From NCBI GenBank assembly GCA_001871075.1, contig MNUP01000047.1:1-49032 (forward strand): DNA of 49,032 bases. Direction: 5' to 3'. Under the pieces are notes generated by a model, which did no database searches, was not told where the DNA came from, and saw only the letters and a list, made by a program, of their open reading frames with translations. Positions 14,247 to 20,212 of the stretch are shown piece by piece. Both the position numbers and the translations under genes were made by a program. Each line of letters begins with the position of its first letter. Position 1 is the first letter of the stretch. The stretch is from Candidatus Desantisbacteria bacterium CG1_02_49_89 (GTDB lineage: Bacteria > Desantisbacteria > UBA1551).

Positions 14247-15516
14247 TCAACGTGTTTTGCTTGCATATTTGATCCTGTGCGTAACCGCAGCGTTCTGCAA
14301 CCGCGCATGCGGGGAAATCAGTTCGAAAGACATAGAATATAAAATTTACCTTTATCCCTCTGATGAAGCGCAGCCGCCGAAGCGTGCCCGCATACGCCGC
14401 GTTGCTTCAGTGCCGCCTTCGGTAAAAACGGTTGACTACAGTGTGTATACCGGTCTTGGCAGCATATATACCGATACTTTTCCGATAAGAGGGCTTCACG
14501 TGACTTCGTGGGCTGCCAGTTCTCTCGTTTCCTTTAACAGGCTTGTCGGGCTGGTAAACAGGACGGAGCTGAACGCGCTTGTTCTGGACCTTAAAGAGGC
14601 GGAGGGAAGGATCGCGTATGACAGCAGGCTTGATATCGCAAAAGAGCTGGGAACGCTGGAACCGATCGTTTCAAACATCGACGGGCTCATAACGATAATG
14701 AGGGAAAACAGGATCTTCCCCATAGCGCGCATCTGCGTTTTCAAGGATACGCTTCTTGCGCACAAAAAACCGGAGTGGGCGGTAAAAAACAAGAGCGGAA
14801 ACATCTGGCAGGATAAAAAGGGCCAGTCCTGGCTTGACCAGTATAACAGGGAAGTCTGGGATTATATAGTTATGATCGCGGAAGAAGCGGCTCAGAGGGG
14901 TTTCAGGGAGATACAGTTTGATTACGTAAGGTTCCCCAGCGACGGACAAATATCCGACTGCGTATTTCCCGCAAAGGCGAATTTCGGAGAAACCATTTCT
15001 CCGGCGCGCGTTATTCGAAGATTCCTGGAATATGCAAAAAATCGCCTGAAGCCTTACGGCGTGGCTATTTCGGCAGACCTGTTCGGGCTTACGTGTTCTT
15101 CCCTCGATGACCTGAACATAGGCCAGGTGATCGAAGAAGTGGCGAAGGAAGTGAATTACGTCTGCCCCATGACCTATCCCTCGCACTACTACCGCGGGAT
15201 GTATAACCTCCAGGTGCCGGAGGCAGAACCGTATAAGACTGTTTTCACAAGCATGAAAGACGTAAGGGTTAAACTCGGGGATACCAACCCGTGCGGCATA
15301 AGGCCGTGGCTGCAGGATTTTTCGCTGAAAGTGAAATACAACGCGTTCGAGGTGCAGGAGCAGATAAGGGCGGTCTATGAGAACGGCATAAGCGAATGGC
15401 TGCTCTGGAACCCAAGGTGCGTATACACGGAGGAGGTTTTAAGGCCTGAATCAGAGAGAAAGGCTGTAGCAAAGAAGATCCCGAATGGCGAAACGCTTAC
15501 GAAGCGGATCGAATAA
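14236..15516 (+). CDS. Putative glycoside hydrolase (DUF4015-like), secreted
   Basis: N-terminal signal sequence; GLHVTSWAAS...LVLDLKEAEGRIAYDS...FREIQFDYVRFPSDG. Confidence 0.7.
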   Translation: MRSNQRVLLAYLILCVTAAFCNRACGEISSKDIEYKIYLYPSDEAQPPKRARIRRVASVPPSVKTVDYSVYTGLGSIYTDTFPIRGLHVTSWAASSLVSFNRLVGLVNRTELNALVLDLKEAEGRIAYDSRLDIAKELGTLEPIVSNIDGLITIMRENRIFPIARICVFKDTLLAHKKPEWAVKNKSGNIWQDKKGQSWLDQYNREVWDYIVMIAEEAAQRGFREIQFDYVRFPSDGQISDCVFPAKANFGETISPARVIRRFLEYAKNRLKPYGVAISADLFGLTCSSLDDLNIGQVIEEVAKEVNYVCPMTYPSHYYRGMYNLQVPEAEPYKTVFTSMKDVRVKLGDTNPCGIRPWLQDFSLKVKYNAFEVQEQIRAVYENGISEWLLWNPRCVYTEEVLRPESERKAVAKKIPNGETLTKRIE

Positions 15517-15773
15517 TGTTTTACACCTACGTGCTAAGAAGCCGGAAAAATCAGAAATTATATTACGGTTATACAAATAATCTGGAGAAAAGGATTGTTG
15601 AGCATAATTCGGGAAAGGATGATTTTACACGTCATAACGGACCCTGGGATCTTGTATATTTTGAGGAATTTACTTTAAAAACAGAAGCATTAAAACAAGA
15701 AAGATTCTTTAAGAGCGGCAAAGGAAGAGAATACGTAAGAGGAAAATTAAATAATTTTCAAATCGGGGAATAG
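15516..15773 (+). CDS. Small GIY-YIG nuclease domain protein
   Basis: MFYTYVLRSRKNQKLYYGYTNNLEKRIVEHNSG; short single-domain form. Confidence 0.88.
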   Translation: MFYTYVLRSRKNQKLYYGYTNNLEKRIVEHNSGKDDFTRHNGPWDLVYFEEFTLKTEALKQERFFKSGKGREYVRGKLNNFQIGE

Positions 15774-15795
15774 CCCGCCCAGCAAGATTGGCGGG
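15774..15795. repeat. Hairpin word CCCGCCCAGCAAGATTGGCGGG
   Basis: 21/22 identity to 36269..36290 inside uppP. Confidence 0.8.
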
Positions 15796-15833
15796 TAAAC
15801 TCCGCCTGGGTCAAAGACATCACTTATGTCTTT

Positions 15834-15886
15834 GACGGGTGGAAGAGCGGAGCGACATGCAATCATTCAGGCAGAGCACACAGGAA
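15834..15886. repeat. tRNA-locus shared segment, copy P
   Basis: GACGGGTGGAAGAGCGGAGCGACATGCAATCATTCAGGCAGAGCACACAGGAA; aligns with 19496..19548. Confidence 0.75.
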
Positions 15887-15939
15887 GCGCGCGCGGTTAC
15901 AGTAATTAGGTATAAAAGTATTAGAGCGAAAATTCAAAT

Positions 15940-16013
15940 CGGGGTGTAGCGCAGTCTGGTAGCGCGCGCGGTTCGGGACCGTGAGGCCCCCGGTTCAAAT
16001 CCGGGCACCCCGA
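15940..16013 (+). tRNA. tRNA-Pro (anticodon CGG)
   Basis: Cloverleaf: CGGGGTG/CACCCCG acceptor, loop TTCGGGA, CCCGG-TTCAAAT-CCGGG T-arm; CCA not encoded. Confidence 0.93.
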
Positions 16014-16136
16014 TAGATTTTCGCAAAGCGAAAATCTGGAGCAATCGAACAATAGAAAATAGAGCAATAGATTAAGGAAAAAGTGAGATTGCGGTCTATT
16101 CTCTATTGTTCCATTTTCAGAAGAGCAAGCTATAAC
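16014..16136. repeat. Post-tRNA module, copy A
   Basis: AGATTTTCGCAAAGCGAAAATCT hairpin, then GAGCAATCGAACAATAGAAAATAGA...GATTGCGGTCTATTCTCTATTGTTCCATTTTC; homologous to 20094..20212. Confidence 0.75.
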
Positions 16137-19290: not shown

Positions 19291-19347
19291 GGTGGGATTC
19301 GCCCGCCCATATCGCTTTTATCGATTGGGCGAAGCGAAATCTCGCTT
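19291..19347. repeat. tRNA-Ser upstream double-hairpin element, copy 1 (degenerate)
   Basis: GGTGGGATTCGCCCGCCCATATCGCTTTTATCGATTGGGCGAAGCGAAATCTCGC. Confidence 0.6.
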
Positions 19348-19388: not shown

Positions 19389-19454
19389 CCGCCCATATCG
19401 CTTTCAGCGATTGGGCGAGACCTCGCCCGTTCATCCAGAGGATGAAACGGGCGG
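19389..19454. repeat. tRNA-Ser upstream double-hairpin element, copy 2
   Basis: CCGCCC-ATATCGCTTTCAGCGATT-GGGCGAGACCTCGCCC-GTTCATCCAGAGGATGAAAC-GGGCGG. Confidence 0.75.
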
Positions 19455-19472
19455 GGAGAGATGGCCGAGCGG
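19455..19472 (+). pseudogene. Truncated tRNA-Ser 5' fragment
   Basis: GGAGAGATGGCCGAGCGG is identical to the first 18 nt of the intact tRNA-Ser at 19660. Confidence 0.8.
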
Positions 19473-19495
19473 GTCCCGATAACTGACGTTATCGG

Positions 19496-19548
19496 GACGG
19501 GTGGAAGAGTGGAACGACAGGCGTTCATTTATACAGAGCACCCAGGAA
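19496..19548. repeat. tRNA-locus shared segment, copy S
   Basis: GACGGGTGGAAGAGTGGAACGACAGGCGTTCATTTATACAGAGCACCCAGGAA; aligns with 15834..15886. Confidence 0.75.
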
Positions 19549-19599
19549 CCGCATCACTTATGTTAACCGATGATTAATTGTAATATTTTGGGTTGGGAT

Positions 19600-19661
19600 C
19601 CGCCCGTACCTTTCAGGTCGGGCGAGATCTCGCCCACTTGCCTATAAGGCAAGATGGGCGG
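19600..19661. repeat. tRNA-Ser upstream double-hairpin element, copy 3
   Basis: CCGCCC-GTACCTTTCAGGTC-GGGCGAGATCTCGCCC-ACTTGCCTATAAGGCAAGAT-GGGCGG. Confidence 0.75.
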
Positions 19662-19747
19662 AGAGATGGCCGAGCGGCTTAAGGCGTGCGCTTGGAGAGC
19701 GTATAACCTGAAAGGGTTCGTGGGTTCGAATCCCACTCTCTCCGCCA
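19660..19747 (+). tRNA. tRNA-Ser (anticodon GGA)
   Basis: GGAGAGA/TCTCTCC acceptor, loop TTGGAGA, long variable arm, GTGGG-TTCGAAT-CCCAC T-arm, encoded CCA. Confidence 0.93.
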
Positions 19748-19820: not shown

Positions 19821-20075
19821 ATGTATTATGTATATATTTTAAAAGATCAAGACAACAAAACATATATTGGTTCAACCAATAACATAGAAAGAAGACTCAG
19901 GGAACACGGGGAAGGTTGTTGTTATTCGACAAGATATTTTAAGAAAGCAGTTCTAGAAGCATATATTGCTGTGAAGGATGAGTCAACAGCAAGAAAGTTG
20001 GAAAAGTATTTAAAGGTAGGTTCAGGCAAAGCATTTCTTAAAAAGAGAATTTTAACTGACGAAGCCTCGGCGTAG
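19821..20075 (+). CDS. Small GIY-YIG nuclease domain protein
   Basis: MYYVYILKDQDNKTYIGSTNNIERRLREHGEG...ARKLEKYLKVGSGKAFLKKRI. Confidence 0.9.
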   Translation: MYYVYILKDQDNKTYIGSTNNIERRLREHGEGCCYSTRYFKKAVLEAYIAVKDESTARKLEKYLKVGSGKAFLKKRILTDEASA

Positions 20076-20079
20076 TCAG

Positions 20080-20094
20080 TCCCACTCTCTCCGC
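20080..20094. repeat. Duplicated tRNA-Ser 3' end
   Basis: TCCCACTCTCTCCGC is identical to 19731..19745 in tRNA-Ser. Confidence 0.85.
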
Positions 20095-20212
20095 AGTTTT
20101 TCGCTACAGCGAAAAACTAGAGCAATTGAGCAATGGAAAATAGAAAATGGATAAAGACAAAGCGATATTGCGGTCTATTTTCTATTGATCCATTTTCGGA
20201 AATTTTGCTATA
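20094..20212. repeat. Post-tRNA module, copy B
   Basis: AGTTTTTCGCTACAGCGAAAAACTAGAGCAATTGAGCAATGGAAAATAGA...GATATTGCGGTCTATTTTCTATTGATCCATTTTC; aligns with 16014..16136. Confidence 0.75.

Follow-up and report, generated by a model that had tools for sequence, protein, structure and literature searches.

Features of the tRNA-Ser and tRNA-Pro loci

The window analysed here, a stretch of 49,032 nucleotides from Candidatus Desantisbacteria bacterium CG1_02_49_89, carries an intact tRNA-Ser(GGA) gene that is preceded by a broken copy of its own 5' part and followed by a small GIY-YIG nuclease gene and a copy of the tRNA 3' end (Table 1). An earlier note had described the broken copy as the first 18 nt of tRNA-Ser running, after the D-loop, into a hairpin and a segment common to the tRNA-Pro locus. 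This description holds: GGAGAGATGGCCGAGCGG at 19455-19472 is identical to 19660-19677, the 5' start of tRNA-Ser(GGA), the hairpin occupies 19473-19498, and 19496-19552 shows 82% identity to 15834-15890, beside tRNA-Pro. The sequence that interrupts the copy is a palindromic element, here called E5, which consists of a hairpin (P1), a conserved GGGTGGAAGAGYGGARCGAC, a closing helix (P2) and AGGAA. The region 19455-19552 is predicted to fold at -36.6 kcal/mol (z -4.1), which is better than shuffled sequences.

Window positions 16027-16122 and 20108-20201 each hold a hairpin and, 3' of it, an A+T-rich repeat (GAGCAATNGAGCAATAGAAAATAGA ... GCGGTCTATT ... CCATTTTC), and this combination lies 3' of most tRNA genes in the genome.

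Table 1. Features of the two tRNA loci and of the E3 family (window positions, unless a locus is named).
Feature	Position	Strand	Evidence or remark
Second small GIY-YIG gene, 3' end overlapping the displaced tRNA-Pro 5' end	15516..15773	+	PF01541, E 4.5e-17
Displaced, degenerate tRNA-Pro 5' part with inserted hairpin, ending in CTGG	15764..15809	+	Comparison with tRNA-Pro 15940-16013
Second E5 of the window, inside displaced tRNA-Pro	15810..15886	+	Model match E 5e-21; one of the four model-building copies
tRNA-Pro sequence resumed 3' of E5, up to the anticodon loop (GCGCGCGCGGTT)	15887..15898	+	Repeat D5
Intact tRNA-Pro(CGG)	15940..16013	+	ARAGORN; Rfam
Double-hairpin REP-like module 5' of broken tRNA copy	19389..19454	+	Core GGGCGAGACCTCGCCC; like the tRNA-Ser(GCT) and (TGA) modules
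Displaced 5' fragment of tRNA-Ser(GGA), nt 1 to D-loop GG	19455..19472	+	Equals 19660-19677
Palindromic element E5, 76 bp	19473..19548	+	Covariance model match E 6.9e-13; helices covary over nine copies
E5 P1 hairpin, GTCCCGATAAC-TGAC-GTTATCGGGAC	19473-19498	+	
E5 P2 helix	19499-19503 paired with 19539-19543	+	
E5 tail AGGAA	19544-19548	+	
CCGC	19549..19552	+	Able to pair with GCGG 19469-19472, closing the junction (predicted fold)
Double-hairpin REP-like module 5' of intact tRNA-Ser	19600..19661	+	Like the module that precedes the E5 fragment of contig C113
Intact tRNA-Ser(GGA)	19660..19747	+	ARAGORN; Rfam 54.8 bits
Small GIY-YIG nuclease gene, 84 aa	19821..20076	+	PF01541, E 5.4e-14
tRNA-Ser 3'-end copy TCCCACTCTCTCCGC, after the GIY-YIG gene	20080..20094	+	Repeat D6
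E3 family, ~95-200 bp, before 3' tRNA fragments	L104:496-740; L084 after tRNA-Leu(TAG); L126:3145-3740		

Copies, position and structure of E5

A covariance model was built from four E5 copies and used to search the genome of origin (a draft of 2.48 Mb in 150 contigs), in which eight copies were found with E values of 2e-21 to 1e-5; because of these eight recurrences the pattern lies far beyond chance. One more copy is present in Candidatus Desantisbacteria CG1_02_38_46 (G001), the one other genome of this phylum that was searched. All nine copies are located within loops of tRNA-gene fragments (Ser, Pro, Phe and Tyr), eight of them directly 3' of the D-loop GG and one in the anticodon loop. 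What the earlier note called foreign sequence is thus no arbitrary insert but a defined element, placed in the loops of tRNAs at nine sites across two genomes.

In the genome of origin, the position after the D-loop GG is occupied in Ser(GGA), Pro(CGG), Phe, Tyr, Pro(TGG) and the Ser fragments C35 and C113, and the Pro(TGG) fragment holds a second copy after the anticodon. The tRNA sequence picks up again 3' of E5 in the Phe and Pro fragments, continuing to the anticodon loop, and in the C113 fragment it extends across the anticodon arm. The intact gene of the same tRNA lies 3' of the E5 fragment at five loci: Ser-GGA, Pro-CGG, Phe, Tyr and Pro-TGG. Three of the nine copies (C35, C113 and G001) have no adjoining intact tRNA; the G001 copy is preceded by a tRNA-Ser 5' end, and a truncated tRNA-Ser comes next.

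Among the 383 genomes searched at a threshold of E 1e-5, E5 was absent from the 381 outside the two Desantisbacteria. The GTDB genome collection was scanned by exact match, yielding two further matches (Verrucomicrobiota and Halorubrum) that have no surrounding tRNA fragment and look like coding sequence, and which we attribute to chance; no viral contig matched the core in an exact-pattern scan. No Rfam family matched E5, only tRNA scoring above the gathering threshold and weak matches appearing solely at a relaxed one, and no prior description of such elements was found in the open-access subset of the literature that was searched. Neither an empty site nor a target duplication of fixed length was seen, the ends of E5 being judged from alignments and the genomes being drafts of uncultured organisms.

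Across all nine copies, standard pairs account for 96.5% of the P1 and P2 cells, in an alignment fitted to the model, which favours pairing, while slid controls drop to 24-44%. Moreover, 11 of the 16 pairs are changed on both sides so that pairing is kept, and none of 500 shuffles matched these two values; the helices contain no G-U pairs. Since the helices are compensated in the absence of G-U pairs, E5 is presumably a palindrome maintained at the DNA level and not through selection on an RNA.

This bears on the possibility that E5 is a functional structured RNA, a tRNA-like 5' leader or decoy that is transcribed together with the intact tRNA and controls how this tRNA is processed or how abundant it is. 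Compensated helices, a region that folds better than shuffles and the placement of E5 ahead of an intact gene for the same tRNA at five loci would all suit such a role. However, an RNA helix under selection fits poorly with the lack of G-U pairs, three copies have no intact tRNA downstream, E5 occurs at some tRNAs only, and in the window copy the P1 arm sequence has been replaced wholesale, so that we regard this function as unlikely. Two more specific candidates were dropped: the size and position of E5 do not suit a group I intron, which also had no Rfam match, and the 18-22 nt tRNA 5' end, if it served as a guide RNA, would match the neighbouring intact gene, with no effector seen.

Neighbouring repeats, partial tRNA copies and GIY-YIG genes

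Both tRNA-Ser copies are preceded by the arrangement CCGCCC-hairpin-GGGCGAGAYCTCGCCC-hairpin-GGGCGG with differing arms, as had been noted earlier. This module does precede other tRNA genes, namely tRNA-Ser(GCT) and tRNA-Ser(TGA), but it is not tRNA-specific: 82 exact cores were counted in the genome and none in the reversed control, and the double hairpin is therefore a REP-like repeat and not a part of the tRNA. Its many dispersed extragenic copies are those expected of REP/BIME sequences. The core is absent from G001. The core, GGCGAGRYCTCGCC, lies in the window at 19303-19332 as well as in the two tRNA-Ser modules, and at ~80 further places in the genome.

The two tRNA-Ser modules are of different subtypes. 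That of the broken copy aligns with the tRNA-Ser(GCT) and tRNA-Ser(TGA) modules with local scores of 91 and 83, against 39 with the module of the intact gene, which instead groups with the module before the E5-bearing tRNA-Ser fragment on C113 (score 112). These groupings at tRNA-Ser suggest that it is more likely the broken copy that retains the ancestral upstream region, the intact gene having received its 5' part with the insertion. In the earlier account, the tRNA promoter region was duplicated and an insertion followed; the outline is right, in that the upstream region is repeated, but the modules of the broken and intact copies group apart. If the tRNA-Ser promoter and 5' end had simply been duplicated locally and the copy then broken by unrelated sequence, this would explain why the partial copy adjoins the intact gene and why the upstream modules are alike. 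Such a history does not account for their different subtypes, nor for the recurrence of one element, in two genomes and four tRNA types, at an unchanging position in the tRNA. This recurrence of E5 largely refutes it, and we consider it improbable.

Ten matches to Y1 transposases were found in the genome, and the three loci checked had no double-hairpin core within about 1.5 kb. REP transposases were also rejected as movers, the palindrome not being found near the Y1 loci checked. Two of the Y1-transposase genes (PF01797; L129 and L131, on contigs C13 and C100) are bounded by short GGGGACGG/CCGTCCCC repeats, which are unrelated to E5 or to the double hairpin.

Partial copies of tRNA genes are common in this genome: for 14 of its 43 tRNA genes, a partial self-copy lies nearby, 5' fragments being upstream and 3' fragments downstream. 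A second structured family, E3, occupies the T-loop of 3'-end fragments downstream of intact tRNAs; several of these fragments start in the T-loop with E3 directly before them, and E3 has a left arm complementary to the 3' strand of the T-arm in its particular tRNA. In one array of G001, near-identical E3 copies follow tRNA-Leu and tRNA-Gly, each ending in the 3' end of its own tRNA, which is the trace that would be expected from movement between tRNA targets. Since a possible P1 (GCCCAGA/TCTGGGC) is confined to the E3 copy of tRNA-Lys in G001 and is lacking from the Leu and Ser copies, an HDV-like ribozyme was dropped as a candidate.

Some E3 copies contain a segment (GTAAATCC, GTGAATCT, GCAAATCC) with two alternative pairing partners. 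At tRNA-Pro(GGG) (L103), two tandem CGGGGCGTAGC copies and then a hairpin, CCGCCCAGCAAGATTGGCGGG, lie upstream, and downstream the tRNA 3' end is tandemly duplicated together with ~135 bp of flank.

Small GIY-YIG genes are associated with tRNAs throughout the genome, five of the seven lying at most about 600 bp from one (rough post hoc P 1e-7). At the Cys and fMet loci, the GIY-YIG gene has a hairpin-interrupted tRNA copy on one side and the intact tRNA on the other. At 43 small GIY-YIG loci of other genomes, a tRNA was found in 15, of which 7 also carry a partial tRNA copy; a GIY-YIG frame lies between the copy and the intact gene in six of these seven, the seventh (L149) having only a short interval there. 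In several of the partial copies, a hairpin takes the place of part of the anticodon arm. In other phyla, the loci L133, L137, L163, L164, L178 and L181 have a small GIY-YIG gene flanked on one side by an intact tRNA and on the other by a partial tRNA copy, which is often interrupted by a hairpin. No sequence common to E5 and the GIY-YIG genes was found.

Proposed origin and comparison with known systems

We consider it probable that insertion elements which target tRNAs invaded the tRNA-Ser gene on either side and left the tRNA intact. The events would be insertions, or break-and-repair duplications, at tRNA loops; each would supply the missing part of the tRNA, so that the intact tRNA survives and the displaced part stays as a fragment.

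Genomic islands of the integrase type, which use tRNA attachment sites, likewise regenerate the tRNA and leave a fragment, and in this general respect the fragments fit such an origin. However, the inserts measure just about 76 to 350 bp and are non-coding or hold one GIY-YIG gene, the 5' fragments end in the D-loop, which is not the usual attachment segment, and in this window the stretch from fragment to tRNA holds no integrase gene, which makes islands a very unlikely source. Misassembly of metagenome-derived contigs, a natural concern with a 150-contig draft, is scarcely credible for nine copies that differ in sequence and have compensated helices, several of them lying deep within long contigs and one coming from a genome independent of this draft.

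If insertion elements are indeed responsible, E5 and its T-loop relative E3 may be the non-coding palindromic counterparts of tRNA-associated GIY-YIG elements, and we infer that nucleases mobilise them. The GIY-YIG enzyme of phage T6, SegB, cuts within tRNA genes, prefers the motif RAWTSGAAC and causes a segment made of tRNA and segB to be amplified in tandem, the 5' end of the tRNA and the 3' end of segB sharing microhomology (PMC13096335). We recognise in this motif the tRNA T-loop, a reading of the sequence that is our own, as the term does not appear in the text of PMC13096335; in 102 kb of tRNA-bearing sequence, 16 of the 22 occurrences of its reverse complement, GTTCSAWTY, are the T-loops of intact tRNAs. 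The GIY-YIG nucleases described here might similarly cut conserved tRNA-loop sequence. Because SegB cuts and duplicates tRNA genes and its motif matches the T-loop, a plausible route would start with a cut in a conserved tRNA loop; its repair would then duplicate part of the tRNA and leave an insert at the join. Which enzyme would cut at the D-loop site of E5, and with what specificity, can only be supposed, and the link to GIY-YIG genes is a statistical, post hoc one. This link and the D-loop position count against the proposed invasion, as do the three E5 copies that have no adjoining intact tRNA, the lack of sequence common to E5 and the GIY-YIG genes, and the failure to see an empty site or a fixed-length target duplication.

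More tentatively, and with less confidence than we place in the invasion of tRNA-Ser itself, the elements could be a phylum-restricted family of non-coding palindromes that specifically enter the D, anticodon and T loops of tRNA genes, are moved in trans by small tRNA-targeting GIY-YIG nucleases and rebuild the tRNA. It looks as though E5 is part of a wider, poorly described pattern, in which small elements, some with a GIY-YIG gene, invade tRNA genes and leave a working copy. If true, this would be a bacterial example, spread over the whole chromosome, of selfish DNA that exploits essential tRNA genes while sparing them. It would also explain why small GIY-YIG genes lie beside tRNAs in many bacteria, and where the truncated tRNA copies come from that are passed over as noise in annotation; if the rebuilding reading is true, host viability would be preserved as the tRNA is rebuilt with each insertion.

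Several known systems resemble parts of this arrangement. The likeness to REP/BIME sequences, paired palindromic repeats that the double-hairpin module resembles with its 82 cores, is limited to this flanking module, E5 being a separate family. Theta (HDV-like) ribozymes adjoin phage tRNAs (PMC10879173) and are likewise structured elements beside tRNA genes, but they cleave at the tRNA 3' end, whereas E5 lies inside a 5' fragment, E3 before a 3' fragment, and no Rfam match was obtained. The Rickettsia palindromic elements are short palindromic inserts of about 100 bp (100-150 bp) within genes and are known in the tmRNA and RNase P RNA genes (PMC2229807); E5, also a palindrome, measures 76-84 bp. 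These elements occur between and inside many genes, whereas every E5 copy detected lies in a displaced tRNA fragment, where the loop position is fixed and an intact tRNA has been retained.

With regard to SegB, the nucleases predicted here are chromosomal, very small (about 84 aa) and found at many tRNAs, and the SegB motif is that of the T-loop, whereas E5 occupies the D-loop. The insert at 19821-20076 has a GIY-YIG catalytic domain; the E5-type palindromic elements are non-coding and lack a nuclease gene, and since E5 encodes nothing it is not classed as a SegB-like homing element. What SegB and this locus share is a GIY-YIG enzyme that adjoins tRNA genes together with the partial duplication of a tRNA, both of which are found here.
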